From Porphyromonas sp. COT-290 OH3588 (lineage in GTDB: Bacteria > Bacteroidota > Bacteroidia > Bacteroidales > Porphyromonadaceae): a stretch of 64,000 nt of DNA. A program made the translations under genes and the position numbers. Position 1 is the first letter of the stretch, and each line of letters starts with the position of its first letter. The notes under the pieces are model-generated. The model worked only from the letters and a program-made list of their open reading frames with translations, was not told where the DNA came from and did no database searches. Positions 3,290-63,350 of this stretch are shown piece by piece. The stretch lies in assembly GCF_000769075.1 (NCBI RefSeq), contig NZ_JRFC01000003.1:124001-188000 (forward strand), in the 5' to 3' direction.

Positions 3290-3545
3290 TTGAAGGGGAG
3301 ATTGACTCCGATTGGTGGACTAATTCCCTATGATGTATCCACCAACTGCCGAAGATTGATGGGAAGAAATGCCCAGAAAAACGGCACAAACACATCAATC
3401 CACCCCGAAAAACACGTTATTTATATGGTTATTAAAAACTTACAAAAAACCATTTTAGGCGATTGTTTTTGTTCATCTGGAGGGTGATGCCCCAAAAGAG
3501 GTAGGACGCAATACAGAGCCCTCCAGAGGCCAAATACAAGGTCCG
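3290..3545 (-). repeat. Intergenic 350-bp repeat family, copy F (diverged)
   Basis: Read on the minus strand, this stretch matches the other copies in the same order: CTTGTATTTGGCCTCT, a CCTCCAG box, an AT-rich centre, CATTTCTTCCCATCAATC, a hairpin of the type AGTTGGTGGA / TCCACCAATC, then CTTCAATTTC. It is the most diverged of six copies. A short frame in the other direction keeps a fragment (RRLMGRNAQK) also seen in two other copies, but there is no sign of translation. Confidence 0.75.
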
Positions 3546-3854
3546 ACCTTTTTTCATCATCGGCAGAGGTAATCCGCACAAGACATACAAACATCATCAG
3601 TATTTGTTAATTTTTGTACTCCCAGATCTTGGTTATTCCCTCCCTTGGGCGCCTCCATATCTTACCCTTGAAAAAACATCTTGAGTCTTCCTACCCAAAA
3701 CAATCATCAGACCAAGTCTATGGCTCAACAGGGCTATATATAAGCTATAAAGGTATGCTCAACTACTACACACCCAAGGCGTCCACATGGCTCTGTGCTG
3801 GAGGGAACTAAATAATCTTCGCCCACCGAGCCGCATAGTTCGGAATTAAGAAGC
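3546..3854. other. Intergenic stretch without recognisable feature
   Basis: No frame here looks like a gene: the longest one has no start context and no family signature. I see no clear hairpin or repeat apart from the flanking repeat copy on the left and the -7 element of the peptidase gene on the right. Confidence 0.5.
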
Positions 3855-3862
3855 TAACTTTG
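3855..3862 (+). promoter_or_regulatory. Probable -7 promoter element (TAACTTTG) of the PepC-like gene
   Basis: TAACTTTG fits the Bacteroidetes -7 consensus TAnnTTTG and lies 75 bases before the ATG at 3938. No good -33 TTG is found at the usual distance, so this is a tentative call. Confidence 0.45.
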
Positions 3863-3937
3863 AGGTCATGCGGATGACACGCAGACGCCTCAAGATACGA
3901 GCAATGTAATTACCCCAAATAAATATCACCAAAGCAA

Positions 3938-5338
3938 ATGAAAAGAATTATCCTAGGTCTGCTAGTTATTCCCCTCGCCTCGGGGCTAGCATCAGCACAA
4001 GTGCAGAGCGGTAAAGGAGGGTTAAGCGCATCAGCCCTGCAAACCATTCGTCAAGGCTATACCAATACACCCAGTGAGCGAGCACTCAAAAACACTATCG
4101 CCCAGCACGGTATGGTCTTCGCCTCTAGCAGTCTGCGTGGACGACCCGACGGCGAGTTTTCGCACCGAGTACCCACACGAGGCATTACCAATCAGCACCA
4201 GAGTGGGCGATGCTGGCTATTCACTGGGCTCAATGTGCTTAGGGCCGACCTTATCAATCAACACAAAACGGGCGACTTCTTCTATTCGCACAACTACTCT
4301 TTCTTCTGGGATCAGTTGGAGAAAGCCAACCTTTTCCTACAAGGGATCATCGACACGCGCAAGAAACCCATCAACGACCGCACCGTAGAGTGGTTATTCT
4401 CCAATCCGATTGGGGACGGAGGACAGTTCACTGGCGTATCGGACAACCTCATTAAGTATGGCGTAGTACCCGCAGAGGTCATGCCAGAGAACGTAAATAG
4501 TAACAACACCAACAAGCTCTCAGGGATACTCGCCCGTGTACTCCGACAGGGAGGTATGCGCTTGCGCCAGTCCGCCCAAACGGGTGCGAGCGAGAAGCAA
4601 CTAGAGGCACAGAAGCTACAGCTCCTACAAGGCGTCTATCGCCTGCTCGTGCTCAACCTTGGCGAACCGCCAACCAAGTTTACCTACACGCTACGGGACG
4701 CCTCGGGCAAAGCTATCTCGACCAAGGAGTACACACCACAGAGCTTCTACCATGAGTTTGTGGGGCGTGACCTGCGTGACGAATACGTGATGCTGATGAA
4801 CGACCCCTCACGTCCCTTCTACCAAACCTATCAGATCGAGTACGACAGACATCTCTACGACGGCAAAAACTGGACGTACATCAACCTCCCCATAGAGGAG
4901 CTCAAAGAGATGGCCATCGCCTCTATCAAGGATAGCACGATGATGTATTACTCCTGCGACGTGGGCAAAGAGCTAGATAGGCAGAGTGGCATCTTGAGCC
5001 TAGACAACAATGACTACGAAGCCGTTTTGGGCTTCCCTCTAGATATGGACAAAAAAGAGCGCATCGAGAGCAAAGCCAGTGGCTCTACCCACGCCATGAC
5101 GCTCGTCGCCGTAAACCTCGATGAGCAAGGTAAGCCAACCAAGTGGCTCGTAGAGAATAGCTGGGGAGCCAACTCGGGACACAAGGGGCATCTGATCATC
5201 ACAGACGAATGGTTCGATGCCTATACCTTCCGTATTGTAGTAGAGAAGAAGTACATCACCGACAAGGTACGTACCCTACTAGACCAAAAGCCCACGATGC
5301 TCCCACCTTGGGATCCAATGTTCCGTACGGAAGAGTAG
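3938..5338 (+). CDS. pepC: Exported PepC / bleomycin hydrolase family cysteine aminopeptidase, 466 aa
   Basis: This is a C1B papain-fold peptidase. The triad is visible: Cys92 in QSGRCWLFTGLNVLR, His385 in STHAMTLV and Asn407 in ENSWG. The length fits bleomycin hydrolase / aminopeptidase C, which removes N-terminal residues from peptides and in classic forms works as a hexamer with the active sites inside. Unlike the cytosolic enzyme of lactic acid bacteria, this one starts with a signal peptide (MKRIILGLLVIPLASGLASA), so it should act in the periplasm or on the surface; this exported type is usual in Bacteroidetes. It is a single-gene unit with its own terminator, fitting a proteolytic lifestyle based on peptides. 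The gene name is by family and does not imply identical substrate range. Confidence 0.92.
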   Translation: MKRIILGLLVIPLASGLASAQVQSGKGGLSASALQTIRQGYTNTPSERALKNTIAQHGMVFASSSLRGRPDGEFSHRVPTRGITNQHQSGRCWLFTGLNVLRADLINQHKTGDFFYSHNYSFFWDQLEKANLFLQGIIDTRKKPINDRTVEWLFSNPIGDGGQFTGVSDNLIKYGVVPAEVMPENVNSNNTNKLSGILARVLRQGGMRLRQSAQTGASEKQLEAQKLQLLQGVYRLLVLNLGEPPTKFTYTLRDASGKAISTKEYTPQSFYHEFVGRDLRDEYVMLMNDPSRPFYQTYQIEYDRHLYDGKNWTYINLPIEELKEMAIASIKDSTMMYYSCDVGKELDRQSGILSLDNNDYEAVLGFPLDMDKKERIESKASGSTHAMTLVAVNLDEQGKPTKWLVENSWGANSGHKGHLIITDEWFDAYTFRIVVEKKYITDKVRTLLDQKPTMLPPWDPMFRTEE

Positions 5339-5522
5339 CGAGGGTGGCCATAGGACTAAATACGCAGTTAAGAGCGCGAGTACTAGAATACGTCAACGGC
5401 TGTATTCTTAGCAACATTAGTGCCTCCCGGACTTCTGCTTCGGCTTAGGTCGTCTACTTGGCAAGCTCCCCTTAGTCCTCAGGCCTAGCCCTTACATTTT
5501 ATGCATTCCGATGCACCTAAAT

Positions 5523-5565
5523 GAGGCTGTGGCAAGATTTTGTTTTGTCCACAGCCTCGTTTTTT
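5523..5565 (+). terminator. Terminator after the PepC-like gene
   Basis: A perfect 10-bp stem GAGGCTGTGG / CCACAGCCTC (5523-5532 with 5549-5558) with a T-rich loop is followed by G and six T. The 180 bases between the stop codon and this hairpin hold no recognisable gene. Confidence 0.85.
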
Positions 5566-5687
5566 GTATGACCACAATCCGACAGATAGGCCTTAGTCAT
5601 CTACGATCAAAAGCCTAAAAGGCTCTCATTAAACCTCTAATATCATTGACATTCGGACTAAACGAAAAGATTTTCGGTGAAATTGAG

Positions 5688-5717
5688 TTGGTTATTTGGA
5701 ATAAGTTAATACCTTTG
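5688..5717 (+). promoter_or_regulatory. Bacteroidetes promoter of the ABC-GntR operon
   Basis: TTG at 5688-5690, a 19-base spacer and TACCTTTG at 5710-5717 match the Bacteroidetes sigma factor consensus (TTTG-N19-TAnnTTTG) almost ideally. The last base of the -7 box directly touches the inverted repeat at 5718-5743. Confidence 0.8.
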
Positions 5718-5743
5718 TGGTGTATTAGATTGGTAATACACCA
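5718..5743. promoter_or_regulatory. Perfect inverted repeat, probable operator of the GntR regulator
   Basis: TGGTGTATTA and TAATACACCA form a perfect 10-bp inverted repeat with a 6-base spacer. It starts right after the -7 box, so it covers the expected transcription start. The last but one gene of the operon codes for a YtrA-type GntR regulator, a family that binds palindromic sites at its own promoter. I infer autorepression of the whole operon through this site. Confidence 0.75.
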
Positions 5744-5841
5744 AACGAGGGCTAGAATGAATGCTACGAAGTATCCCTTAGTACGTGTAAATCAGTCAGT
5801 CTGTACGAGAACAAGAAATACTAACGAATTAGGAATAAACT

Positions 5842-6705
5842 ATGATTAAGGTTACCCAAGTCGATTTTGGCTATAAAAGAAGCCATTTGCTATTCAAGTC
5901 TATTGGTCTAGACCTACCTGCTGGTAGCATCGTTGGCTTGCTTGGGCGCAATGGCGAGGGGAAGAGTACACTCATGAAGCTCATCTCCGGCGTTCTTCGC
6001 CCACGCTCTGGTTCTATTGAGGTGCTAGGCTACAAGGCTGCCGAGCGCCCCGTCAAGCTCCTCCAACAGATCTACCTACTACCAGAGGATCTCTCCCTGC
6101 CCAGCATGACCATTAGGGAGTATTTCTCGGTCTATGCACCTTTCTACCCAAGCTACGATGCCTCGATAGGAGAGGAGCTTGTCAAGGAGTTTAATCTACA
6201 ATGGGATATGAAGCTCGACAAGATATCGCTCGGGCAGCGCAAGAAGGCCGCCATTGCTCTAGCCCTCTCGCTGCGCACGCCTCTGCTCTTGATGGACGAG
6301 CCAACCAACGGTCTAGATATTCCCTCCAAATCCGTTTTTCGCCGTATGCTGGCACGCTACTCTAGCCCTGAGCAAAGCATCATCATCAGTACCCATCAGG
6401 TCCGAGATCTGGAGCAGCTCATCGACCGCATTCTCCTGCTCGACGGCAATCAGATCACCTGCAACGAAAGCATCGCCACGCTCGGTGCGTGCTTTGGCTT
6501 CGGCATCGTGGAGCCCAGCATGAGCCAGCCAATCCTCTACAGAGAGCCAGCCGTTATGGGCGAGTATGCTGTCTATGGTCTAGACGGAGAGGAAGAGGAG
6601 GCCACTACCTTCTCCATGGAGCTATTCTTCAACGCCATGGTTGGACAGAGAGAGCTGATGCAGGGGCATCTAGCTAAGTACAAAATGTCGCACCCTAATG
6701 CCTGA
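5842..6705 (+). CDS. ABC transporter ATP-binding protein (YtrB-like), 287 aa
   Basis: An ABC ATPase domain spans about residues 1-220: Walker A GRNGEGKST (about 37-45), signature SLGQRKKAA, Walker B LLLMDEPTNGLD and His-switch STHQVRD. The last 60 residues have no recognised domain. It is the first gene of an operon with two integral membrane proteins and a GntR regulator, the layout of YtrABCD-like export systems that respond to envelope stress or antibiotics in Gram-positives. In Bacteroidetes the substrate of such systems is unknown. The leader is about 100 bases long from the predicted start of transcription and contains the inverted repeat. Confidence 0.92.
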   Translation: MIKVTQVDFGYKRSHLLFKSIGLDLPAGSIVGLLGRNGEGKSTLMKLISGVLRPRSGSIEVLGYKAAERPVKLLQQIYLLPEDLSLPSMTIREYFSVYAPFYPSYDASIGEELVKEFNLQWDMKLDKISLGQRKKAAIALALSLRTPLLLMDEPTNGLDIPSKSVFRRMLARYSSPEQSIIISTHQVRDLEQLIDRILLLDGNQITCNESIATLGACFGFGIVEPSMSQPILYREPAVMGEYAVYGLDGEEEEATTFSMELFFNAMVGQRELMQGHLAKYKMSHPNA

Positions 6706-6712
6706 TTGAGCT

Positions 6713-7546
6713 ATGAATACGCTACAACTCAACAATGCCACTTGGTGGGGACGTGTACTCCTGCTAATTCGAGCCGACCTGTATGAGCAGAGGCGTAATA
6801 TGATGATTTTGGGTGGACTTATCTTGCTCATCATCTTTGTATTGCCTCGTATCCCTCTGCTTTTCGGAATACCCTACTCCGAATGGGCAAGCGACTATGT
6901 CGCCGAAGTGGCGTATACGATAAAATATGGTATCTCAACCTTTTCTGGACTGATCTATACGCTCTACTATTACAATCGCAAGGTTCAGCACTCCAAACCA
7001 ATGGCCTTCGCTCACTATCCAGCTACGGTTTTGGAGAAGATACTCGCTGGCGTTGGCTTTAGTCTATTGGTCTGGCTAATGTGCTGGGGTTTAGTTCTAC
7101 TAAGCCAGATCATCACTTGCCTGACTATCCCCGGAGATATCAAGATATATTGGAGCCCTTGGTTCTATGATAGCCCCTACGTACAGCTCAATGAGCTTGC
7201 GTGGGATAGGCTCCCGCTGATAATCTATGTTCTTCCGTTCGTCCTATACCTGATAGGTTTAACCCATACACTGATCTCTACGCTTGGAGTGATTACCTTC
7301 AAGAACTTCCTCAAGGGCTTTTTGCTCTCGCAATGCGCTTTCGTAGTAGGGCTATGGCTTATGGTAGGGCTTGGTCTATTTAGAACTGTAGATTGGTTCA
7401 ATGTCGCTCGACTAGCCAATCGAGGGCTATTACCTTATAGCAGCCTAGACTACAAGATGACCATCAGTACGCTAGTAGTGCTCTTCGGGGTTATTGGACT
7501 ACTCTTCTGGCTCATCTATCGTAAACTAAAAACCGTAGAGAAATGA
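6713..7546 (+). CDS. ABC transporter membrane protein, 277 aa
   Basis: This is a hydrophobic protein with about six membrane segments (for example residues 32-52, 119-141, 175-197, 211-231 and 247-268). It begins 7 bases after the ATPase gene and overlaps the next gene by ATGA. It shares with its neighbour the pattern RIPLLFG near residue 50, YNRKVQHSKPMAFAHYPA near 90 and IYRKLKT at the C-terminus, so the two are paralogues from a tandem duplication. It is probably one half of the membrane channel of the transporter. No motif reveals the substrate. Confidence 0.8.
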   Translation: MNTLQLNNATWWGRVLLLIRADLYEQRRNMMILGGLILLIIFVLPRIPLLFGIPYSEWASDYVAEVAYTIKYGISTFSGLIYTLYYYNRKVQHSKPMAFAHYPATVLEKILAGVGFSLLVWLMCWGLVLLSQIITCLTIPGDIKIYWSPWFYDSPYVQLNELAWDRLPLIIYVLPFVLYLIGLTHTLISTLGVITFKNFLKGFLLSQCAFVVGLWLMVGLGLFRTVDWFNVARLANRGLLPYSSLDYKMTISTLVVLFGVIGLLFWLIYRKLKTVEK

Positions 7547-8397
7547 CGACTTCGGCACCGCTATATGCTAGTACCCTTGGGCGTATCTGGCTGATGATAC
7601 GCCTAGACTATGCCCTCTATCGCTGGCAAGTACTCAGGGCCATCGGGCTATTTGCCCTAGCCGCTTTCGTTGTGCCTCGCATACCGCTCTTTTTCGGCGA
7701 AGACCTAGTAAACTTCTCCGAGACCTACGTGCGAGCCAATATGTACGATGTACATCTAGCTTTCGGCTATGTTGCGGTCTTTTTCGGTTGGCTCGCCTAC
7801 TGCAATCGCCGCACCCAGCACGCCAAATCAATCGCCTTCGCTCACACGCCAGCGAGGCTAGGCGAGCAGATTGTCTGTAGCTTCGTCTTTGGCCTTGTGC
7901 TATGCGTGCTGATGTGGCTTGCCGTACAGCTCAATCAATTCGTATCGTGGCTAACTCTACCCATAGATCTGCCCTTGAGGTTTGACTGGCTGCCCGACAC
8001 TGATAGCCAGTTTATCATCTACAGCGGCTATGTAGTGCATAATCCTATCGTGCTAACGCTAATCAACCTAGGCTATATTGGGCTCGGATTCTTCACTCTC
8101 GTATTGGGAAGTATCTCGTTTCGCAATATCATCAAAGGCTGGTTCATCGCTCTCGCTGCCTTAGCAGCAGGTAGCTTCATCGTATTCTCTCCGCAGATAT
8201 ACCTCTCCAAGCTCCTCTTGGATAGCCTAGTTCATCAAGAGTCGGCCACAGGCGAGATCACGTATGTCCAGACCAATACACTAGGGTACGAGCGCATGGA
8301 AGTCATCTTCACCACCTACCTAAGCATCTTACTACCGACCCTCGCCCTAGTGCTGGGCTGGTTGGTCTATCGCAAACTAAAAACAATCAAGAAATGA
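7543..8397 (+). CDS. ABC transporter membrane protein, paralogue of the preceding gene, 284 aa
   Basis: The start overlaps the previous stop as ATGA and the end overlaps the next start the same way, showing translational coupling. The protein has about six membrane segments and repeats the landmarks of its neighbour: RIPLFFG, CNRRTQHAKSIAFAHTPA and a C-terminal VYRKLKTIKK. The most natural reading is a heterodimeric membrane part served by one ATPase, which could also work as a homodimer. Substrate unknown. Confidence 0.8.
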   Translation: MTTSAPLYASTLGRIWLMIRLDYALYRWQVLRAIGLFALAAFVVPRIPLFFGEDLVNFSETYVRANMYDVHLAFGYVAVFFGWLAYCNRRTQHAKSIAFAHTPARLGEQIVCSFVFGLVLCVLMWLAVQLNQFVSWLTLPIDLPLRFDWLPDTDSQFIIYSGYVVHNPIVLTLINLGYIGLGFFTLVLGSISFRNIIKGWFIALAALAAGSFIVFSPQIYLSKLLLDSLVHQESATGEITYVQTNTLGYERMEVIFTTYLSILLPTLALVLGWLVYRKLKTIKK

Positions 8398-8750
8398 TAC
8401 AAGCACCTCAGACCTACCTAGGCTTCATACAGATCGCCGATCTGGTGAGCGAGCGCATACTGAGGGGGGAATACAAAGCAAACGAACGCATACCCTCGGT
8501 AAGGGAAATGGCCGAACACGCAGAGGTCAATCCTAATACCGTGGTGCGTGCCTACGAACGACTCACTCGTGCAGGCCTAATCTACACCCAGCGTGGGCTT
8601 GGGTATTTTGCCTCAGCCGAGGCGGCCGATCTGATTAGAGCTGAGCGTATCAAGAAGTTCTACGCAGAGATGCTACCAACCTTCAGGCGAGAGATGGAGC
8701 TGCTCGAGATCAAATATGAAGATCTAAGGCAGCATCTATCGGAGCAGTAA
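8394..8750 (+). CDS. GntR family regulator, YtrA subfamily, 118 aa
   Basis: A winged helix-turn-helix occupies about residues 8-78 (ERIPSVREMAEHAEVNPNTVVRAYERL, here described as the GntR recognition helix around residues 34-58). Only a short helical tail of about 40 residues follows, which is the YtrA subfamily architecture: no large effector domain. The gene is coupled by ATGA to the upstream membrane protein gene. YtrA-like repressors control the ABC operons that contain them, and a perfect inverted repeat sits on the promoter of this operon (5718-5743), so autoregulation is likely. The inducer is unknown. Confidence 0.92.
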   Translation: MIQAPQTYLGFIQIADLVSERILRGEYKANERIPSVREMAEHAEVNPNTVVRAYERLTRAGLIYTQRGLGYFASAEAADLIRAERIKKFYAEMLPTFRREMELLEIKYEDLRQHLSEQ

Positions 8751-8790
8751 AAGAAAACAGTCAAATTGTTTCACTCAAATCTATACAACT

Positions 8791-14394: not shown

Positions 14395-14735
14395 TTTTTA
14401 GATTTTAGACCACATTTCGGCATATTAGTGGGAAGATGCCTTGCGACTAAGGGAGCCAACAGCTCAACCTCGTATTTGGCCCCTCAGAGGCTCTAGGTTG
14501 CGTTCGACCTCGCTTAGGGGCTTCGGTCTAGGCACGTGAAAATCTGCGCACACAACGCCCCAAACACAACAGTCTATAAACCAGAAATATAAAAATGAAT
14601 TATTGAGCTATTTTGCGCACTTGCCCACACTTCTAGATATTTCTTCCCATCAATCTCCTCGTATTAGTGGACACATCGCCGAGGATTAGCCCACCAATCC
14701 GAATAAATCTTCCCATCAATTTCTGCGGGAATGCG
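14395..14735 (+). repeat. Intergenic 350-bp repeat family, copy E (diverged)
   Basis: The landmarks of the family occur in order: TTTTTAGATTTTAG, ACCTCGTATTTGGCCCCT, TTCGACCTCGCTTAGG, an AT-rich centre, TTTCTTCCCATCAATC, the hairpin ATTAGTGGA / CCCACCAAT around ACATCGCCGAGGATTAG, then TCTTCCCATCAATTT. The part right of this motif is missing. The remaining 280 bases up to the LolC-like gene contain only short palindromes (for example CTCACC / GGTGAG near 14855). Confidence 0.82.
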
Positions 14736-15017
14736 CCTCCATGCCACAGCATCGGGCCTTCGTTGTACTCAATTTAAGGGAAATGCGTTTGCGTATTTTA
14801 ACAGAAATAGCATAGTAGCTATTAGCTTATTGGTATTGGCATTTAGGTTACCTCACCCAATAGGTGAGCACCCTCCGAGAGCCTTTGCGAGGCAGTAGGC
14901 TATGGCGCACGCTACTATCACAAGGCTAGGTATCATCTAGTATTTTCCCAAATACACATCTCAGACCCCAGAGCTACCCCAAGCTCTAGCGTGCACCTCC
15001 TAGATAAGGCTAGAGGG

Positions 15018-21029: not shown

Positions 21030-21480
21030 AAATTTAGATTTTCGTTCATTTTTCAGAATGTTGTTGGGAAACCACTAGAGCGAGCAGGAGAAAAAGTACA
21101 GACCTCGTATTTGGCCTCTAGCGGGCTCTAGACGGCGTCTGACCTCGTTTGGGCACTCCACCTCCAGCCGTGTAAAATAACCGCCTAAAACAAGCGTTTT
21201 GTAAATAACTAATAACCAAATATATAAAATAAACATCTAGCTAATTTTATGCTTTCGTGTCGCCTTTTGGGGGATTTCTTTCCTTCAATCTACTCGGATT
21301 AGTGGACATATCGCCGAGGATTAGCCCACCAATCCGAAAAGGTCTTCCCATTAATTTACTCAATAGTCGCCTTCGATCGCCCAAAACCTCTCTGCCGTCC
21401 GCCCCAATTTAGGCTCAATTTGTTTACGGTTCTTAACACAAAAGAAGCAAAGTCGCCCCCTAAATCTTTTCGAGTTTGTA
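21030..21480 (+). repeat. Intergenic 350-bp repeat family, copy A
   Basis: This copy carries all parts: AATTTAGATTTTCGTTCATT, ACCTCGTATTTGGCCTCT, GACCTCGTTTGGG, CACCTCCAGCCG, the AT-rich centre, TTTCTTTCCTTCAATC, the CGGATTAGTGG / CCACCAATCCG hairpin, CTTCCCATTAATTT, CTCTGCCGTCCG and TTACGGTTCTTAACAC. Weaker similarity to copy B goes on leftward to about 20985. A one-base difference relative to copy C near 21375 breaks the small reverse frame that other copies keep. The about 300 bases between this repeat and the alcohol dehydrogenase promoter hold nothing else I recognise. Confidence 0.88.
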
Positions 21481-31367: not shown

Positions 31368-31489
31368 GGAAATTTGTCATAAATCAATAGGTAGGGTTTG
31401 TGGCAAATTCACCTTTGGCGTAGCCTTTCGTTTTAGGGAATAGGTGTATAGCTCTACCTCTTGTAGAGGGGATAGGTCTTGGCGGGTAG

Positions 31490-31938
31490 AATTTAGATTT
31501 TCGTTCATTTTTCAGAATGTTGTTGGGAAACCACTAGAGCGAGCAGGCGAAAAAGCACAAACCTCGTATTTGGCCTCTAGCGGGCTCTAGATGGAGTCTG
31601 ATCTCGCTTGGGGACCCACCTCCAGCCAAGTGAAAATAACCGCCCTAAACAAGGGGATTGTAATCAGCTAATAGCCAGATGTATAAAACATACATCTGGC
31701 TAATTTTATGCTTTCGTGTCGCCTTTTTGGAGATTTCTTCCCATCAATCTTCTCGGATTAGTAGACACATCGCCGAGGATTAGCCCACCAATCCGAAAAA
31801 GTCTTCCTATTAATTTGCTCAACAGTGGCCTCAATCGCCCAAAACCTCTCTGCCGTCCGTCCCGATTTAGACCCAATTTGTTTACGGTTCTTAACATAAA
31901 AGAAGTAATAGCACCCCTAAACCTTTTTAGCTTGTAGC
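31490..31938 (+). repeat. Intergenic 350-bp repeat family, copy B
   Basis: Copy B is complete and lies between the TPR-SUFU gene and the ICMT-like gene. It holds the clearest internal hairpin of the family, CCAGATGTAT / ATACATCTGG at 31675-31699 with a 5-base loop, and the second one CGGATTAGTAG / CCACCAATCCG flanked by CTTCCCATCAAT and CTTCCTATTAAT. Weaker similarity to copy A continues left to about 31443. A reverse reading frame of about 60 codons is shared with copies C and D, with no start signals. Confidence 0.9.
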
Positions 31939-32033
31939 GACGCTGCGTGCTGTGTCGCCGTGGTTAGTTGGAATTGATCCCACTAGCCTATCGCTCCGAT
32001 TTTGATAGATGTGGCTCGAGTATTCGGCTAGGG

Positions 32034-32753: not shown

Positions 32754-32783
32754 TTGCAAATTCGCAGAAAAGTAGTACCTTTG
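32754..32783 (+). promoter_or_regulatory. Promoter of the SRP RNA - tRNA-Thr unit
   Basis: TTG at 32754-32756, a 19-base spacer and TACCTTTG at 32776-32783. The predicted start of transcription, about five bases downstream, coincides with the first base of the SRP RNA stem at 32788. Confidence 0.82.
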
Positions 32784-32787
32784 CATC

Positions 32788-32883
32788 GGGTAAGTCCCAT
32801 ACGACCAGCTCCCTTTGACTCCCCCAGGGTTTGATCGCAGCAAGGGTATTAGGTCGTAGCGGTGCGATATGGATCGCTTACCC
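32788..32883 (+). ncRNA. ffs: Signal recognition particle RNA (small bacterial type)
   Basis: The 96-base stretch folds into a long rod: GGGTAAG at the 5' end pairs with CTTACCC at the 3' end, then TCC with GGA, ACGACC (32801-32806) with GGTCGT (32852-32857), and CCC with GGG next to the tip. The tip has the conserved symmetric loop of domain IV, CAGG opposite AGCA (CCCCCAGG and GCAGCAAGGG), which binds the M domain of Ffh. The apical part is GTTTGATCGC rather than the usual stem with a GGAA loop. A promoter precedes it directly, and tRNA-Thr begins 4 bases after its 3' end. The RNA works with Ffh in targeting membrane and secreted proteins. The call rests on the motif and fold, not on a search. 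Confidence 0.8.
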
Positions 32884-32887
32884 TCCT

Positions 32888-32961
32888 GCCTCTTTAGCTC
32901 AGTTGGCCAGAGCACGTGATTTGTAATCTCGGGGTCGTTGGTTCGAATCCGACAAGAGGCT
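32888..32961 (+). tRNA. tRNA-Thr (anticodon TGT)
   Basis: A complete 74-base cloverleaf: acceptor GCCTCTT / AAGAGGC with discriminator T, D-arm AGCTCAGTTGGCCAGAGC, anticodon loop TTTGTAA (TGT) and T-arm GTTGGTTCGAATCCGAC. CCA is not encoded. It has no promoter of its own: it begins 4 bases after the SRP RNA and ends at a shared terminator, so it must be cut out of a joint transcript. Confidence 0.97.
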
Positions 32962-47479: not shown

Positions 47480-47989
47480 TTAGCATAATATATAACACAA
47501 CGTATATAAACATACTTCATAGCCGCGCAAGCTTGTCTCAGAAAAAATTAATATCATAATATATTGAGATAAGATAGATGTGGCTAGTGGAAACTTCTTA
47601 TTACCGACGTTGGTTTACGTGTTTATACCTTTTCCTACAAGTTGCAAAGGTATGGCATTATCATATAATTTGAATGTTAATGTGTAGATATTGCAGGGTA
47701 ACCGCATAAAATTTTGGCTACACACTTAACATGATGATTCTCAATATAAACTTCGAACTTAACTGCTCTCAATCTCTATTGTCAGAAAAGAAATAGATAT
47801 TGATAATCAGTAGCTTATGTTTTGATGCGGGTACCCTGTAGATATTGAAGAGTCTGGAACGTTGTATTATTTATTTAGTAATTTGATTGTCCCTTTAGAC
47901 GAACGAGCTTCTTTGGAGGTGAAAGAAAAAGAAGTATGGTATGTATTAATGCTTATTACATTCTGTCATTGATTATTTTTCAAACTATT
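47480..47989. other. AT-rich intergenic region upstream of the acyltransferase gene
   Basis: The region is AT-rich and has no reading frame of note. A minus-strand TACCTTTG at 47645-47652 may be the -7 box of the acyltransferase gene, giving a long leader; no -33 box fits. Otherwise I see nothing here. Confidence 0.5.
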
Positions 47990-48340
47990 TTGCCTCTTTT
48001 GTGTTAAGAACCGTAAACAAATTGATCCTAAATCGGGACGGACGGCAGAGAGGTTTTGTACGATTGAGGCCACTGTTGAGCAAATTAATGGGAAGACTTT
48101 TTCGGATTGGTGGGCTAATCCTCGGCGATGTGTCCACTAATCCGAGTAGATTGATGGGAAGAAATTCCCAAAAAGGCGACACGAAATCATAAAATTAGCC
48201 AGATGTATGTTTTATACATCTGTCTATTAGCTGATTACAATCCCCTTGTTTTAGGCGGTTATTTTACACGGCTGGAGGTGGAGTGCCCAAACGAGGCCAG
48301 ACGCCGTCTAGAGCTCGCTAGAGGCCAAATACGAGGTCTA
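47990..48340 (-). repeat. Intergenic 350-bp repeat family, copy C
   Basis: Read on the minus strand this copy is very close to copy B over the core, including both hairpins (CAGATGTATAAAACATACATCTG and CGGATTAGTGG / CCACCAATCCG) written here as their key parts. It lacks the outer flanks on both sides: similarity stops after ACCTCGTATTTGG at one end and after TTCTTAACAC at the other. This shortened form shows the minimal unit of about 345 bases. Confidence 0.9.
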
Positions 48341-48640
48341 ATGTTTTTATCCTCCCCTATTCTATGCCATTACCCTAGACATGAATAGAGTGATCAAACC
48401 TAACAATTTATCGTAAAGAAACAATTATACCCGTTTTTGCGATTAGACAATCCTTGATAACTACGGATAAAACCTTCAATCATCTCGCTATCAAAAAAGA
48501 ATACGACTTCATAGCCTATCAGAGGTAAGACATCAACTATTTTAAGGTCCAAAACAGAGGAGAGGGAGGCGTGAGCTTTCTCTTTCTTTTTGTTATCACC
48601 AAACTACTAACTCCCAAACCTAAACTCTAGACAGTTTACG
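48341..48640. other. Intergenic stretch without recognisable feature
   Basis: No coding frame, hairpin or repeat stands out between repeat copy C and the promoter of the outer-membrane protein gene. Confidence 0.45.
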
Positions 48641-50002: not shown

Positions 50003-50076
50003 GGCTCCGTAGCTCAACTGAATAGAGCATCTGACTACGGATCAGAAGGTTACAGGTTTGAATCCTGTCGGGGTCA
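50003..50076 (+). tRNA. tRNA-Arg (anticodon ACG)
   Basis: A full cloverleaf of 74 bases: acceptor GGCTCCG / CGGGGTC with discriminator A, D-arm AGCTCAACTGAATAGAGC, anticodon loop CTACGGA (ACG) and T-arm ACAGGTTTGAATCCTGT. CCA is not encoded. ACG is normally changed to ICG to read CGU, CGC and CGA. Confidence 0.96.
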
Positions 50077-50080
50077 CGAT

Positions 50081-50116
50081 AAGGCTTGAGAGTTTTGAAC
50101 TCTTGAGCCTTTTTCT
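50081..50116 (+). terminator. Terminator after tRNA-Arg
   Basis: AAGGCTTGAGAGTT pairs with AACTCTTGAGCCTT (wobbles in the middle) around a short loop and is followed by TTTTTC. Confidence 0.85.
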
Positions 50117-50156
50117 TTGTACAATCCATTTGCTCAATTTCACTAGCCTTAGAGCT

Positions 50157-50201
50157 AAAAAAGAGAACCTCATCGGCTCTAAATATGGCCAATGAGGTTC
50201 T
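50157..50201 (-). terminator. Terminator after the CAT-anticodon tRNA
   Basis: On the minus strand AGAACCTCAT and ATGAGGTTCT form a perfect 10-bp stem followed by CTTTTTT. It lies 27 bases past the tRNA. Confidence 0.85.
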
Positions 50202-50227
50202 TTATTAAAACAATAAATTATGACTAG

Positions 50228-50301
50228 TGGTCCCACTTGGGCTTGAACCAAGGACTCCCTGATTATGAGTCAGGTGCTCTAACCGACTGAGCTATAGGAC
50301 C
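50228..50301 (-). tRNA. tRNA with anticodon CAT (elongator Met or Ile2)
   Basis: A 74-base cloverleaf on the minus strand: acceptor GGTCCTA / TGGGACC with discriminator A, D-arm AGCTCAGTCGGTTAGAGC, anticodon stem CCTGA with loop CTCATAA, and T-arm CTTGGTTCAAGCCCAAG. CAT can mean elongator Met or, after lysidine change by TilS, Ile for AUA codons; it is not an initiator since it lacks the three G-C pairs of the anticodon stem. I cannot decide between the two by eye. Confidence 0.93.
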
Positions 50302-54009: not shown

Positions 54010-54010
54010 T

Positions 54011-57289: not shown

Positions 57290-57347
57290 AAAGTTATCCC
57301 CTAGATCCTACAAGTAGAGAGATCTAGGGGATAACTTTTATTTTTTT
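57289..57347. terminator. Bidirectional terminator between the WbpB-like gene and proS
   Basis: A perfect 19-bp stem (57289-57307 with 57321-57339; core AGTTATCCCCTAGATC) has a 13-base loop, with T-rich tracts on both strands. It serves the convergent genes on either side. Confidence 0.93.
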
Positions 57348-57353
57348 GTTGGA

Positions 57354-58832
57354 CTAGTAGGCTCTAGCGAAAACAACTCTCTGTGCGCTAGGCTTGCCCG
57401 TTACCATACATACCCCCGGAGTCTTGTCACCCTCTAGAGGAATACAGCGGATTGTAGCCTTAGTTTCGGCCTTGATACGCTCTTCTGTTTCGGGTGTTCC
57501 GTCCCAATGTGCCAAGATAAAGCCACCGAGCTCAATTTTTTCCTTAAACTCTTCGTAGCTATCTACCGTGATCGTATGTGTCGTGCGGTAGTCGAGTGCC
57601 TTCTGATAGATATTGGACTGAATTTTATCCAGCAGATCCGCCACGTGATCTACTACGCCATCTAGAGCGATTGTTTCTTTGGTAAGTGTATCACGTCTGG
57701 CAACCTCAATAGTGCCTTGCTCTAGATCTCTAGCACCGAGGGCTAGACGAACGGGCACTCCTTTGAGTTCATATTCGGCAAACTTCCAACCGGGCTTCTT
57801 ATTGTCACTATCGTCGTACTTGACACTGATGCCACGAGCCTTGAGCCCTGCGACAATCTCCTCTACACGTGCCGAAACTGCCGCAAGCTGCTCCTCACCC
57901 TTGTAGATAGGTACGATGACGACTTGATATGGAGCGAGCTTAGGAGGTAGCACAAGGCCGTTGTCGTCTGAGTGTGACATGATGAGTGCTCCCATAAGAC
58001 GAGTAGATACGCCCCACGAAGTCGCCCACACATACTCCTGATTACCTTCCTTGCTTGCAAATGTTACATCGAATGCCTTGGCGAAGTTTTGCCCAAGGAA
58101 GTGCGAGGTACCGCTTTGTAGTGCCTTGCCGTCCTGCATCAATGCCTCGATGGTGTAGGTATCTACCGCACCAGCGAAGCGTTCGTTAGCGCTCTTAACC
58201 CCAGTAACTACGGGCATAGCCATATAGTCACGAGCAAATCTCTCGTAGACGTGTAGCATACGTACAGCCTCTTCTTCGGCTTCTTCTCGAGTGGCGTGAG
58301 CGGTGTGCCCCTCCTGCCAGAGGAACTCGGCCGTACGCAAGAATAGGCGTGTACGCATCTCCCAGCGTACGACGTTGGCCCACTGGTTGCAGAGAATGGG
58401 TAGATCTCGGTAGCTCTGGATCCAGTTCTTATAGGTATTCCAGATAATCGTTTCGCTCGTAGGGCGAACGATTAGCTCCTCCTCTAGACGAGCCTCTGGG
58501 TCTACGACTACGCCACCCTCTGGGTTAGTCTTGAGGCGGTAGTGCGTTACGACAGCACATTCTTTGGCAAAGCCCTCTACGTGGTCGGCCTCACGGCTCA
58601 GGAAGCTCTTAGGAATGAAGAGCGGGAAGTAGGCATTGACGTGACCAGTTTCCTTAAACATATCGTCCAGAACACGTTGCATCTTCTCCCAAATCGCATA
58701 GCCATAGGGCTTGATAACCATACAGCCACGCACAGCTGAGCTCTCGGCTAGGTCTGCCTTGAGCACAAGATCCTGATACCACTGCGAGTAGTCTACACTG
58801 CGAGGGGTTAATTCTTTGAGTTCTTTTGCCAT
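57354..58832 (-). CDS. proS: Prolyl-tRNA synthetase, archaeal/eukaryotic-like type, 492 aa
   Basis: Class II synthetase: motif 1 region [16 protein letters not shown], motif 2 [24 protein letters not shown] and motif 3 [19 protein letters not shown]. The protein lacks the large editing insert of the E. coli type and has the zinc-less C-terminal extension ending in a conserved Tyr (VVFARAY), so it is the ProS type 3 common in Bacteroidetes. It charges tRNA-Pro. A minus-strand TACCTTTG at 58876-58883 is a probable -7 box. Confidence 0.97.
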
Positions 58833-58944
58833 TGCAATATATTATGATTGTTATTTACTCTTAATTAAAACCTTGCAAAGGTAATAAGAAACCAAGTGAA
58901 TAGCACCACTTGCTCCGATGATAATGGCTGTAACAGACGAAGAA

Positions 58945-58970
58945 AGCCCCTCGTATCACTACGAAGGGCT
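58945..58970. other. Hairpin between aspA and proS
   Basis: AGCCCCTCGTA pairs with TACGAAGGGCT (one wobble) around TCAC. It lies between the aspA terminator and the proS promoter and may back up termination; no T run follows on either strand. Confidence 0.45.
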
Positions 58971-58990
58971 CACACATAACACAATGATAT

Positions 58991-59030
58991 GAAAAAAAAC
59001 TTAAGAGGCCTCCCACAGGCACGGGGAGGT
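58991..59030 (-). terminator. Terminator after aspA
   Basis: On the minus strand CCTCCC and GGGAGG (plus a few more pairs) form a short hairpin followed by a run of eight T after eight bases. It begins 6 bases after the aspA stop. Confidence 0.6.
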
Positions 59031-59035
59031 TGTCG

Positions 59036-60457
59036 CTAGCCCTTGGGCTGAATGTCTAGACGTACGGGGCGGATCATATTCTCTGGTGAGAGGATTGTAT
59101 CCAGCTCCTCCTTGGTCAAGATGCCATGTTCGAGCACAAGGTCATAGACTCCTCGACCTGTTTCCATTGCTTCTTTGGCAATCTTAGTAGAGTGCTTGTA
59201 CCCGATGATTGGGTTGAGTGCAGTGACGATGCCCACACTATTCTTGATGTAGTTTGTGCAAATCTCTTCATTGGGCTCTATGCCGTCGATACAATGGATG
59301 CGTAGTGTGTCGAAGCCGTTCATCAGTAGCTCGGCCGATTCGAAGCAACACTGTGCCATCACCGGCTCCATAGCATTGAGCTCCATTTGGGCGGCATCAC
59401 CAGCCATGGTTACACATAGGTCGTTGCCCATTACCTTGTAGCACACTTGGCTCATCACTTCGGGGATTACGGGATTGACCTTACCCGGCATAATAGATGA
59501 CCCCGGTTGCTTGGCGGGGATACTTATTTCTCCCAGACCACAGCGAGGGCCGCTCGAGATTAGACGTATATCGTTACAGATTTTATTCACCTTAACGGCT
59601 AGGCGTTTCATTGCAGAGCTGTATCCAATCATTTCGCTGGTGTCGCTCGTTGCGCCTACTAGGTCATCGGCTAGCTTAATGTCCCAACCAGTTATTGAGC
59701 GCATCGCCTCGATGCAGTAGCCCGCATATTCTGGCTCGGCACAGATACCTGTACCGATAGCTGTAGCACCCATATTAACGGTTAGGAACTGCTCGGCTGC
59801 ATAGTCGAGATGATGTAACTCGTGCTCTAGGATAGAGGCGAAACCGCCGAAGGTCTGCCCTAGCGTCATGGGCACTGCGTCTTGGAGCTGTGTGCGTCCC
59901 ATCTTGAGGACGTGCTTCATCTGCTCGCTCTTGACTCTGAGGGAGTCGATGAGCTGCTGCAGGTGTTTCTTGAGGAGCTGATGTGTGGCGTAGAGCCCTA
60001 GGTGTATGGCTGTTGGGTAGGCGTCGTTGGTAGACTGAGAACCATTGACGTGGTCGTTGGGCGAGAGGTACTGAAACTCCCCTGCCTTGTGTCCCATGAT
60101 CTGCAATGCTCTGTTGCAGATCACCTCGTTGGCGTTCATATTAGTTGTCGTACCAGCCCCCCCTTGTATCATATCTACTGGGAAGTCGCTATGCCACTGA
60201 CCGTCTAGGATCTCACGGCAAGCCTGCACAATGCCTTGGTACTGTGCATCGGTCAGACGGCCTAGACGATGGTTCGCCTCTGCTGCTGCTGCCTTAGTCT
60301 GCGCTAAGCCTTGAATAAAAAGTGGGTAGTCGGATAAAAGAAACTTACTGATCTGGAAGTTTTCGATGCCTCTAAGGGTTTGCACTCCATAGAGATGTGC
60401 GTTAGATATTTGGCGTTCGCCGAGCAAATCGCTCTCGATACGGAAAGTTTGTTCCAT
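59036..60457 (-). CDS. aspA: Aspartate ammonia-lyase, 473 aa
   Basis: The fumarase/aspartase signature GSSIMPGKVNPVIPE is present, with the N-terminal ESDLLGERQISNAHLYGVQT and GGAGTTTNMNANEVI typical of aspartase. It converts aspartate to fumarate and ammonia, feeding the fumarate-succinate branch used by Porphyromonas in amino-acid fermentation. Length is normal. A minus-strand TACCTTTG at 60512-60519 gives a probable -7 box. The gene is a single unit. Confidence 0.96.
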   Translation of the reverse strand: MEQTFRIESDLLGERQISNAHLYGVQTLRGIENFQISKFLLSDYPLFIQGLAQTKAAAAEANHRLGRLTDAQYQGIVQACREILDGQWHSDFPVDMIQGGAGTTTNMNANEVICNRALQIMGHKAGEFQYLSPNDHVNGSQSTNDAYPTAIHLGLYATHQLLKKHLQQLIDSLRVKSEQMKHVLKMGRTQLQDAVPMTLGQTFGGFASILEHELHHLDYAAEQFLTVNMGATAIGTGICAEPEYAGYCIEAMRSITGWDIKLADDLVGATSDTSEMIGYSSAMKRLAVKVNKICNDIRLISSGPRCGLGEISIPAKQPGSSIMPGKVNPVIPEVMSQVCYKVMGNDLCVTMAGDAAQMELNAMEPVMAQCCFESAELLMNGFDTLRIHCIDGIEPNEEICTNYIKNSVGIVTALNPIIGYKHSTKIAKEAMETGRGVYDLVLEHGILTKEELDTILSPENMIRPVRLDIQPKG

Positions 60458-60567
60458 GTTGATAATCGAATAATACTAGCTATTACAACTATTTTACGAT
60501 TGATTGCACAGCAAAGGTAGCACTTAAATCGGAATATCCTAATTAACTGCCTTGTTTTTTGCGTGAT

Positions 60568-60603
60568 ATAATAAAACCCGAATTTTTTGTCGGGTTTTAT
60601 TAT
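60568..60603 (-). terminator. Terminator after aguB
   Basis: ATAATAAAACCCGA and TCGGGTTTTATTAT form a perfect 14-bp stem with an 8-base loop; the A/T part serves as T tract on either strand. It separates aguAB from aspA. Confidence 0.85.
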
Positions 60604-60659
60604 AAATAGAAAAGCGTAAATAGTTTTGATTTGAATTTAGAAAAGCTACAATTTGATAC

Positions 60660-61532
60660 TTAAACCAAGAAGCGCTTGGTCAATCCGTCAAATTCATCAA
60701 TTCTACGATCTCTAAAGAACGGCCACCATCTTCTTACTCGCTCGCATCGCTCTAGGTCAATGTCCACCACACGAACTTCCTCTTCGCGCCCCAATTCGGC
60801 CATCAATTCGCCTTGAGGCCCAGCGACGAAGCTACGCCCCCAGAAGCGAATACCATTGGTCTGCCCAGAGGGGTCTTCCTCCACCCCGACACGATTGACC
60901 GTTACGACTGGTAAGCCATTAGCCACAGCGTGCCCACGCTGTACGAGTTGCCATGCATCGCTCTGTCGGCTTTGCTCCTCGGGTACATCGCTACTCTCCC
61001 AGCCAATAGCGGTAGGGTAGATGAGTAGCTCTGCCCCACGCATAGCCATCAGGCGTGCTGCCTCGGGGTACCACTGATCCCAGCAGACCAAAACGCCTAG
61101 ACGCCCCACAGAGGTTTGGATAGGCTCGAAGCCTAAGTCCCCCGGTGTGAAGTAGAACTTCTCGTAGTATGCAGGGTCATCGGGGATATGCATCTTGCGG
61201 TATTTGCCTGCGATAGATCCGTCCCGCTCGAGCACCACCGCTGTATTGTGGTACAGCCCTGCGGCTCTGCGCTCAAAGAGCGACAGCACGATGACTACGC
61301 CTAGCTCACGGGCTAGCTGACCGAATTCCTCCGTGCTAGGTCCGGGGATTGGCTCCGCTTGGTCGAAGATCTGTACATCTTCCGTTTGGCAGAAGTATAG
61401 ACCGTTGTGTAGTTCTTGTAGGACGATGAGCTCTGCCCCTTGGGCGGCAACCTCTCGGATTCGTTCGCCGAGTCGCTTCTTATTGTGTACGTGGTCGGCC
61501 GTATTGGCCTGTTGAATTAGTCCGACTTTCAT
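60660..61532 (-). CDS. aguB: N-carbamoylputrescine amidase, 290 aa
   Basis: A nitrilase-superfamily enzyme with the catalytic Glu (LIVLQELHNGLYF), Lys (KYRKMHIPDDPAYYEKFYF) and Cys (LGVLVCWDQWYPEAAR). The sequence around the Cys and Lys fits AguB, which turns N-carbamoylputrescine into putrescine, CO2 and ammonia. The ATG at 61532 overlaps the aguA stop as ATGA, which decides the start over an ATG three codons earlier. The pair forms a two-step route from agmatine to putrescine. Confidence 0.94.
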   Translation of the reverse strand: MKVGLIQQANTADHVHNKKRLGERIREVAAQGAELIVLQELHNGLYFCQTEDVQIFDQAEPIPGPSTEEFGQLARELGVVIVLSLFERRAAGLYHNTAVVLERDGSIAGKYRKMHIPDDPAYYEKFYFTPGDLGFEPIQTSVGRLGVLVCWDQWYPEAARLMAMRGAELLIYPTAIGWESSDVPEEQSRQSDAWQLVQRGHAVANGLPVVTVNRVGVEEDPSGQTNGIRFWGRSFVAGPQGELMAELGREEEVRVVDIDLERCERVRRWWPFFRDRRIDEFDGLTKRFLV

Positions 61533-62593
61533 AGTTCCCATTTATTTTGATTGATGAAACCCTCTGGTATCTGCATCGTAGCGCAGTGCAGGCTACCGTG
61601 CTGGCGAATAAGCGCTTGGCAGTCTACCCCGACGATTTGGCGGTCTGGTAGCGCCTCGCCTAGAGCTTTGAGTGCCTCGTTATCGTAGTCTTGGCCGTAG
61701 GTAGGCACAAGCAATCCGCCATTGACGAAGAGGAAGTTGGCATACGTTGCGGGCAGGCGATGTCCGTCTTCGTCGTAGATCGCTTTAGGTAAGGGTAGGG
61801 GAATGAGTTTGTATGGCTCTCCCGATGTCGTGCGTAGAGCCAGTAGCTCCTGCTCCATACGCTCGAGTGCATGATAGTGGCCGTCCCGAGGGTCGAGGCA
61901 CTTGACGTAGGCAATCGTATCGGGGGTAACGAAGCGTGCCAGTGTGTCAATATGTCCGTCGGTGTCGTCGCCCTCTAGCTCGCCGTTGCGCAGCATGATG
62001 AGTCGCTCGGCTCCCAGCACCTCGGCTAGCAAGCCAGAGAGCTCCTCCTCGTCGAAGCCTGCATTGCGGTTAGGCTCGTAGATACAGCCATAGGTAGAGA
62101 GGATTGTCCCCTGCCCATCGCTCTCTACACCGCCTCCCTCTAATACGCACATCAGACGATTCATCATCGAGACGTCGTCGGCGAAGACACGAGAGAGGTA
62201 CAAGCAGCGGCTGATCAAGTTGTCCTTGTTGGCGGCAAACTTCATACCCCAGCCGTTGAAAGTAAAGTCTGCAATGGCTTTGAATGTTCCTTCGTCCGAG
62301 CTGACCCTAAAGGCCAGTGGTGCATAGTCGCGGCACCAAGTATCGTTGCTTGGCATCTCTAGGATACGCAGGCGATGCTCGAAGTGCTCGCCCTCGAATA
62401 TCTGCTTGACGTAGTTTTCGTCATGAGCAAGGATCAGCAAATCCTCGAAGCGCAGGATAGCACGTGCCATCTCTCTATAGCACGCCTCTACCTCGTCGAG
62501 CATATCTGCCCAATCGCTCTCGGCGTGCGGCCAAGTGATCAGAACCAAATCCTGTGGTTCCCATTCGGGAATCAAGGTTAGTTTAGCCTCCAT
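61529..62593 (-). CDS. aguA: Agmatine deiminase, 354 aa
   Basis: A guanidino-modifying enzyme of the peptidyl-arginine deiminase fold. Visible are TWPHAESDWADML near the N-terminus, NDTWCRDYAPLAF, DGHIDTLARFV with the catalytic His, and GSLHCATMQIP with the nucleophilic Cys near the end. It hydrolyses agmatine to N-carbamoylputrescine. I start at ATG 62593 (MEAKLTLIPEWEPQ); the longer frame upstream runs across the -7 box at 62624-62631. It is related in fold to the P. gingivalis peptidylarginine deiminase but is the short free-agmatine type. Confidence 0.95.
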   Translation of the reverse strand: MEAKLTLIPEWEPQDLVLITWPHAESDWADMLDEVEACYREMARAILRFEDLLILAHDENYVKQIFEGEHFEHRLRILEMPSNDTWCRDYAPLAFRVSSDEGTFKAIADFTFNGWGMKFAANKDNLISRCLYLSRVFADDVSMMNRLMCVLEGGGVESDGQGTILSTYGCIYEPNRNAGFDEEELSGLLAEVLGAERLIMLRNGELEGDDTDGHIDTLARFVTPDTIAYVKCLDPRDGHYHALERMEQELLALRTTSGEPYKLIPLPLPKAIYDEDGHRLPATYANFLFVNGGLLVPTYGQDYDNEALKALGEALPDRQIVGVDCQALIRQHGSLHCATMQIPEGFINQNKWEL

Positions 62594-62623
62594 ATAGTCT
62601 AATTGTCTTAAAGTTATTAGGAA

Positions 62624-62631
62624 CAAAGATA
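62624..62631 (-). promoter_or_regulatory. Probable -7 element (TATCTTTG) of aguAB
   Basis: Minus-strand TATCTTTG, 31 bases before the chosen aguA ATG, fits TAnnTTTG and supports that start. No -33 box fits. Confidence 0.5.
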
Positions 62632-62898
62632 AGCAAACCAAAGGGTAGGGCGTGTCATCATGTACAAAAGGCCGTGTTGCGTGTGCCATTTGCTCCCTAC
62701 GGATTTCGCCAATGCCCTTACTGATTGGCATAGCTGCCCACCAATTTCTCGACTATTGGGCGTGTCGCGGCCGATCCCGAGGCCAAAAATAGGTTATGCT
62801 ACGTAGCTTATACCGTAGATTGATTGGGCTAGATGATGCACCATCTAGCGCATTGTCGAGGACTCGTACGAAGTTGAGATTACACTATTTAACTATTC

Positions 62899-63350
62899 GT
62901 TTAGATTTTGGGTCACATTTCAGCATGTTGGTGGAGCAAAGCAGTAGCCGTAGCCGAGAAAGCATTAGGCCTCGTATTTGGCCCCTAGCTGGCTCTAGAC
63001 GGCGTTCGACCTCGTTTGGGCACTCCACCTCCAGCCGAGTGAAAATAACCGCCTAAAACGAGGGTTTTGCAAATAATTAATAACCAGATATATAAAACAC
63101 TCATCTGGCTAATTTTGTACTTTCATGTCGCCTTTTTGAGGATTTCTTCCCATCAATTTCTTTGGATTAGTGGACACATTGCTAAGTATTAGCCCACCAA
63201 TCCGAAAAAGTCTTCCCATTAATTTGCTCAAAAGTCGCCTCAGACGCCGAAAAACTCTCTGCCCTTCGCCCCGATTTAAGCCAAATTTGCATACATTTTT
63301 TAACACAAAAGAAGCAAAGTCGCATCCCAAATCTCTCGAGTTTTGTAGTG
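62899..63350 (+). repeat. Intergenic 350-bp repeat family, copy D
   Basis: The family landmarks are complete: GTTTAGATTTTGGG, GCCTCGTATTTGGCCCCT, GACCTCGTTTGGG, CACCTCCAGCCG, a hairpin CCAGATATAT / ACTCATCTGG, TTTCTTCCCATCAATTTC, the second hairpin GGATTAGTGG / CCACCAATCC, CTTCCCATTAATTT and TTTTTAACAC. A further palindrome GTGACG / CGTCAC follows at 63347-63368. It shares the left flank type with copy E. Confidence 0.9.

Follow-up and report, generated by a model that had tools for sequence, protein, structure and literature searches.

An intergenic element with a 22-bp-phased array at divergent promoters of Porphyromonas sp. COT-290 OH3588, a possible chromosome-organising site

The matS/MatP, SlmA, Noc and parS sites are short dyads found over the bacterial chromosome, each kind bound by one dimeric protein, they are mostly single and their sequence is kept across species. 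DNA uptake sequences are likewise single sites, occurring in over a thousand copies at an even spacing and in dialects that differ between species. The units of repetitive extragenic palindromic (REP) elements form stem-loops and lie mostly 3' of genes. REP units and bacterial interspersed mosaic elements (BIME) are described as high-copy intergenic palindromic units in alternating orientation, with protein binding reported (PMC2817692). Porphyromonas gingivalis has the miniature inverted-repeat transposable element (MITE) BrickBuilt, which occurs in 19 copies built of tandem, spacerless 23-nt units in variable number, with a leader, a tail and terminal inverted repeats that resemble those of ISPg1 and ISPg9 most closely, and with bidirectional promoter activity reported (PMC4596501). 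The subject of the present analysis is an intergenic element found six times in a 64,000-nucleotide stretch (the window) of Porphyromonas sp. COT-290 OH3588, positions 124,001 to 188,000 of contig NZ_JRFC01000003.1, whose essential part would be four dyad-like sites at a 22-bp period with a second conserved block 5' of the row. Tentatively, with belief and doubt close to balance, it is read as a DNA-level cis-acting site, belonging to a genome-wide set of protein-site arrays that probably organise or insulate the chromosome, the protein itself being putative.

The genome of the window (G000) is a 2.29-Mb draft in 48 contigs and holds about 150 sites of the element, that is 145 matches to a sequence-only model of its 5' block (R1) and five places, chosen by hand, that match only a sequence-only model of the core (R2). 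By itself R2 gives at least 150 matches in G000, with the best 150 of 786 candidates scored, and blastn gives at least 42, with the best 40 of 141 candidates scored. The sister species G023, a metagenome assembly in 130 contigs, has 73 matches to R1 and 75 to R2 (best 150 candidates). With R2 the family is found in two of 26 genomes of the genus, its own included (best 150 of up to 816 candidates per genome), with blastn three of 41 genomes match, again including its own, the third match being 32 bases long (E 0.001) and probably due to chance. An exact 20-letter pattern present in 24 of 54 copies occurs in 24 stretches of a genome collection that may lack the window's own genome, all of them in the metagenome-derived S17M_Sa_46, which is G023 and, to judge from its name, probably comes from saliva; in viral contigs the pattern has no exact match. 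An origin from phage or plasmid is rejected, since blastn against 50,697 phage and 72,556 plasmid records gave no match. Neither the element family nor any intergenic array of the genus phased at 22 bp was found described in the literature, in a search with most subscription journals outside its coverage.

The six window copies and their orientations had been given in a preliminary description and are recovered by blastn with copies C and D, a 54-copy profile also finds the six places, at 268 to 383 bits, and no seventh in the window. Copy A lies at 3187..3571 on the minus strand (268 bits, profile positions 45-429), B at 14396..14813 on the plus strand (286 bits), C, the full-length type copy used as blastn query, at 21030..21457 (+, 383 bits), D at 31489..31913 (+, 369 bits), E at 47985..48358 (-, 341 bits, profile positions 53-427) and F at 62900..63323 (+, 365 bits), the matches of A and E starting only at profile positions 45 and 53. 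The length first proposed, about 350 bases, is too short, as the full element has about 425 bp, and the order of likeness, in which B and C were alike and E and F diverged, has to be redrawn, with C, D and E closest (86-92%), then F, and A and B most diverged. The description of a dispersed, intergenic, non-coding family in both orientations, with many further copies in the genome, holds; no reading frame runs across the six window copies and the longest stop-free run within the profile bounds is 70 codons. The 108 G000 and 41 G023 copies have net lengths of 428-433 bp (5-95%, with the ends placed by extrapolation of the profile). Conservation is found at the 5' end, in a block around CGTATTTG..CTAG..GGCTCTA, in the core and at the 3' end TTTACA..TTAAC. 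In copy C the conserved 5' block, AGACCTCGTATTTGGCC...TAAAAC, lies at 21099..21193 on the plus strand (R1 match G000:C23:145099-145193) and contains no species-fixed column. A GC-rich hairpin module (like GTAGCGACGCTGCGTGCTGCGTCGCC) stands 3' of several copies in both species, in the window at 31930-31960 and 63345-63375 and also at L010, L033, L047, L049 and L055, and looks like a second small repeat that tends to adjoin the element.

The core consists of four 22-bp units in all six window copies, at 3283..3370 in A and 48078..48165 in E, both on the minus strand, and on the plus strand at 14639..14726 in B, 21274..21361 in C, 31733..31820 in D and 63142..63229 in F. The motif CTTCCCATCAAT (up to two mismatches) occurs 16 times in the window where 5.2 are expected, a number reached in none of 100 shuffles, and every copy has two occurrences exactly 66 bp apart because the core splits into four 22-bp units. 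When four-dyad scores are compared with shuffled sequence over 15 periods the excess peaks at 22 bp in all four sets studied, being 0.98 in G000, 2.02 in G023, 6.11 in the relative G016 and 7.64 in the relative G011; dyad symmetry of the units is clear in G011 and G016 and partial in G000 and G023. In a four-unit scan that includes unit-to-unit similarity (threshold 1.0) G000 gaps yield 52 clusters at 22 bp and no more than 7 at any of 12 other periods, and G023 gaps yield 21 at 22 bp and no more than 4 at any other period. G011 and G016 were scanned as whole sequence, in which codon structure lifts periods divisible by three; G016 has 20 clusters at 22 bp against at most 8 at other periods at threshold 1.0, and at threshold 1.1 there are 13 against at most one in G011 and 18 against at most two in G016. 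The same period is thus seen in four genomes, and from it protein dimers bound on about one face of the helix are inferred. A DNA-binding dimer is favoured over an RNA because dyads repeat without a loop on one helical face, most clearly in G011, whose units are dyads with no loop at all.

Of the 52 G000 clusters 37 fall within elements and 15 outside them, about ten of the latter being judged by eye to be true arrays of other palindromes in low copy. Such low-copy 22-bp palindrome arrays with other motifs, for example TTGAGACGTCTCAA and CGTATATACG, lie at C6:243970, 266510, 276380, 283597 and 324573, C13:53985 and 134875, C17:76530, C23:193779 and C32:120323 of G000, several of them within longer inter-element gaps. 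A further peculiarity concerns the third unit, which in G023 copies L031, L047 and L051 is the exact inversion of that in L033, L054 and L055 (GGATTGTAGGACTAATCC, GGATTAGTCCTACAATCC); other copies have nearly exact forms of these, and it looks as though the interior of a dyad had been flipped.

The element is placed at divergent promoters. Among gaps of at least 60 bp on seven G000 contigs it is present in 58 of 110 divergent, 42 of 487 codirectional and 4 of 101 convergent ones, an odds ratio of 13 for divergent gaps, with 104 of 108 elements placed and four omitted. On the G023 contigs analysed (gaps above 30 bp) the counts are 16 of 26, 2 of 113 and 1 of 23. The Bacteroidota promoter box TANNTTTG occurs in element flanks at 3.09 per kb in the outward direction against 0.42 antisense, and inside the element it stays at background (0.43 and 0.53 per kb). 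Since the boxes are enriched in the flanks, and outward only, the element stands upstream of core promoters on one or both sides. A box lies within 250 nt of the start codon in 169 of 224 gene-facing flanks, the distance from element to start codon having a median of 272 nt and quartiles of 198-413 nt.

It is also apparent that the elements are evenly spaced. The 125 inter-element gaps in G000 have a median of 12.9 kb and a coefficient of variation (CV) of 0.52. For the 101 gaps on the seven contigs the CV is 0.53, against 0.86 when the same number of elements is put in real intergenic gaps with the observed class preferences, and none of 3000 simulations was as low; two gaps are shorter than 4 kb where 17.3 are expected (again 0 of 3000). 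In divergent gaps alone the evenness is weaker (CV 0.60 against 0.82, p 0.006). The 14 within-contig gaps of G023 run from 6.3 to 24.7 kb. A replication-strand bias was rejected, with orientation agreeing with GC skew in only 55 of 109 copies.

Between the sister species 13 alignment columns are fixed (at least 70%) for different bases; the array (about columns 246-333) holds twelve of them, and the other precedes it by eight columns. More of the other species' letters are carried by two of 108 G000 copies (C6:650718 and C4:26237) and one of 41 G023 copies (C117 near 20652), with 13, 9 and 12 of the 13 diagnostic letters respectively, which suggests gene exchange between the two species at these loci. 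The motif is otherwise fixed by species and kept to the elements, the G000 form (up to one mismatch) occurring 132 times in them and five times outside, where 2.4 are expected, in 1.59 Mb, and the G023 form in G023 40 times in them and three times outside, where 0.2 are expected.

Gene order was compared over 1.59 Mb of G000 and 0.61 Mb of G023. Of 55 gene ends that face a G023 element and have an ortholog, 42 face an element in G000 too and 13 do not, with 28 of the 42 facing the same element end and 14 the other. The two flanks of an element, where both could be mapped, lead to two different G000 elements in 10 of 11 cases and to a single one in the remaining case. Of 25 junctions with an element 21 have a broken gene order, as have 26 of 240 without one (Fisher p about 1e-14). 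Rearrangement breakpoints lie at elements, and these are read here as marking junctions where the chromosome was cut and rejoined. Copies at orthologous places resemble each other no more than randomly chosen ones do (mean percentiles 0.42-0.62). A crossover point inside the element was considered and rejected, since identity to the ortholog-facing copy is barely higher towards the gene (mean percentiles 0.62 and 0.60 at that end, 0.42-0.60 in the other windows), and no point was mapped.

The next relative in a one-protein search is G016 (62%, against 99% for G023), which carries a 110-nt repeat of its own in at least 34 places (34 of 131 candidates scored), with two weak matches in one other genome (G015) among 26 genomes. 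This repeat is found upstream of 6 of 16 genes whose G000 ortholog has the element and of 3 of 79 without it (p 0.0006). In G011 (62% G+C) arrays of two types, based on TGAGGGATATCCCTCA or AAGTTATATAACTT, occupy 13 gaps selected by eye within 100 kb, spaced with a CV of 0.30 against 0.90 for uniform placement. The TGAGGGATATCCCTCA palindrome (two mismatches) occurs 295 times in G011 and the reversed pattern not once, in 40 other genomes it is found 0 to 4 times per strand each, and 42 exact copies span 7 kb to 2.14 Mb of the 2.18-Mb G011 chromosome. In G000, G023, G016 and G011 alike an array stands upstream of a gene that, on our own reading of its sequence, is of the peptidyl-prolyl isomerase (PPIase) type, in three unrelated spellings; in G011 the array sites are at 147,965 and 148,009 and the gene match begins at 148,209. 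G016 and G011 have unrelated sequences in the same 22-bp format, partly upstream of the same genes.

How such a site might work can be proposed as follows. A putative sequence-specific protein probably loads on each array, which recurs along the contigs every 13-15 kb or so, upstream of the outward promoters of adjacent operons. Evenly distributed sites in promoter regions would then allow the chromosome to be organised or insulated, in the manner of a domain border, a tether or a site of the nucleoid-occlusion type, and local effects on the flanking promoters may accompany this role. Position and spacing, together with the clustering of species differences in the array, point to the array as the functional part. 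The specificity of the protein would evolve and the sites follow, so that the letters of the array change at nearly all copies together in each species, whilst the 22-bp format and part of the gene addresses would persist through the change. It is possible, though on the whole doubtful, that this amounts to a genus-wide address system in which the format is conserved and the spelling is not, each lineage having evenly spaced arrays of four to five 22-bp sites over the whole chromosome, upstream of outward promoters, a fast-evolving protein shifting its specificity with the sites of the species following, often at the same genes, and the array junctions being the places at which cutting and rejoining have occurred between the chromosomes of sister species.

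A number of points weigh against the reading as an organising or insulating site. No convincing candidate for the binding protein was found among 52 syntenic orthologs below 85% identity. A large membrane protein at C6:86616-88044 of G000, 58% identical between the sisters against an ortholog median of 93%, looked like a candidate HU-domain protein from its sequence, not a convincing one. The dyad-only score of G000 is weak (0.98 at 22 bp, the next best being 0.81 at 28), the unit dyads of G000 and G023 are imperfect, their signal depends on unit-to-unit similarity, and no element reaches a strict dyad cut-off. At threshold 1.0 G011 has 13 clusters at 22 bp and 17 each at 21 and 24, and among 24 relatives examined at one locus each, G016 and G011 included, 22 is strictly the best period in two (G011 and G013). 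Even spacing could also come from selection against recombination between near copies. The G011 gaps, all five divergent ones among them, come from a list of blast matches, and uniform placement was the sole comparison for their spacing. The shared-address test for G016 is based on five distinct gaps and weakens when long gaps alone are considered (p = 0.017). As to rearrangement, 26 of 47 order breaks lie away from elements, and the excess is smaller when long element-free gaps (at least 300 nt) are taken for comparison, 16 of 19 against 8 of 24 on the G023 side and 6 of 10 against 4 of 18 on the G000 side. Some contig joins may be wrong, G000 and G023 being drafts, presence of the element was judged with profiles trained on these same copies, and genes on the seven G000 contigs were predicted with a home-made codon-based caller. 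The context counts omit copies near a locus edge or lacking two callable neighbours, 8 of 49 in one set after removal of copies less than 250 nt from a locus end, and 3 of 60 G000 and 2 of 21 G023 copies in the gap-class comparison with G023. Three lineages only were studied in depth.

The main rival, rather unlikely, is an old mobile family, in which a non-autonomous MITE-like element spread into promoter regions, is now fixed and has re-expanded in G023. What was said of a MITE in the preliminary description is borne out thinly, in that the element is short, non-coding, AT-rich (41-46% G+C in the six window copies against 50%), multi-copy and dispersed in both orientations, and fails as to inverted ends and target duplications. 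Random copy pairs have 52% of letters in common in G000, 67% in G023 and 53% between species, the greater likeness of G023 copies would fit re-expansion there, and the 93-98% identity of the 34 scored G016 copies to their query is as after recent spread. Mobility would also fit the lack of extra likeness between copies at orthologous places, and the different orientation towards the gene in 14 of 42 cases. Against it, an inverted-repeat search in the six window copies gave 14 pairs of which none joins two ends (ends of copies outside the window were judged by eye only) and no copy-specific target-site duplication was found in 97 full copies. In these the excess of the 5-mer GATTT at the ends (12 of 97) is conserved family sequence and the k-mers common to both ends equal those of permuted copies; the ATTTAYA..TTAAC ends were rejected as an insertion scar of terminal direct repeats, their likeness within a copy being no greater than between copies. 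Among 108 G000 copies there is no near-identical pair, the best being 0.93 identical, and net length is near-constant though random pairs share half their letters. The element has no copy in the 68-kb stretch C6:465900-533900 (L103-L106) of G000, where a conjugative element of the Bacteroides TraJ/TraM type carries genes for a tyrosine integrase, a relaxase, a coupling protein and transfer. Its copies are evenly spaced and few of them lie in convergent gaps, and mobility gives no reason for species differences to gather in the array. In a search for an empty site at one gene pair the divergent neighbour was not detected within 1.5 kb upstream in 24 other relatives.

Unlikely too is that the array is simply the operator of a global transcription regulator, controlling divergent operon pairs with no organisation of the chromosome. 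Its place upstream of outward promoters, at the median distance from the start codon given above, speaks for an operator, as do the gene-element adjacency kept in 42 of 55 orthologs despite a changed partner and the finding of some of the same genes addressed in G016. An operator would however have to serve about 150 unrelated operons, housekeeping genes such as the PPIase-type one among them, and the upstream distance varies over its quartiles, unlike that of fixed-distance activator sites. An organising or insulating role is preferred to simple operator function because the elements are spaced more regularly than the promoter gaps themselves, and it is on this comparison that we infer it.

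Quite improbable is a DNA-uptake signal, by which the arrays would mark the cell's own DNA for natural transformation. It would account for the dialects and the even spacing, the latter a property of known uptake sequences as well, the motif is species-fixed at nearly all copies and the three foreign-type copies look as if they came from gene exchange, but the motif is confined to the elements, these stand at divergent promoters, and known uptake sequences occur singly and over a thousand times. Very improbable is the multi-copy structured RNA proposed in the preliminary description, for although good hairpins form locally in single copies (13 bp in D and E) and G023 copies alone fold better than shuffled columns on either strand (-18.6 against -3.7, minus strand -13.6 against -4.0, with almost no covariation term), the 54 copies have no consensus fold (RNAalifold, both strands; -0.09 kcal/mol on the plus strand), next to no covariation and no Rfam match, no internal promoter box rises above background and the element lies upstream of one or both flanking genes.

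Elsewhere in the window the stretch 32781-32961 holds a Bacteroidales small signal recognition particle RNA with a tRNA directly after it, and two more tRNAs lie within 50003-50301.

If the chromosome-organising reading is right, an oral genus of Bacteroidota would have a layer of chromosome organisation that has gone unrecognised, with a period and a spacing precise enough for immediate testing. It would offer a case in bacteria of a DNA-binding specificity shifting between sister species together with about 150 sites, and would account for where these plastic genomes rearrange. Were the genus-wide address system true, it would be a bacterial counterpart of rapidly turning-over recombination-hotspot motifs or centromeres. 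Even a mobile family would be unusual here, with a very high copy number, an even spacing and no inverted ends or duplications found.

Set beside the described systems, the element resembles DNA uptake sequences in its species dialects and even spacing, and differs in having its motif confined to arrays. Its likeness to the matS/MatP, SlmA, Noc and parS sites, scattered over the chromosome at a regular density, suggests by analogy that it may work like them, unlike these it forms phased arrays of four or five sites at promoters, with letters that vary between species and a protein that is putative. Few copies lie in convergent gaps (4 of 101) and the G011 dyads are loop-free, in which they differ from REP/BIME, the likeness being that of high-copy intergenic palindromic units (PMC2817692). 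With BrickBuilt the element shares an intergenic, non-coding nature and short repeated units of near-equal length (22 against 23), and the early judgement that the two look different agrees with the described features, which set them apart, the present family having about 150 evenly spaced copies of near-constant length, each with four diverged dyad-like units and no inverted ends found (PMC4596501).

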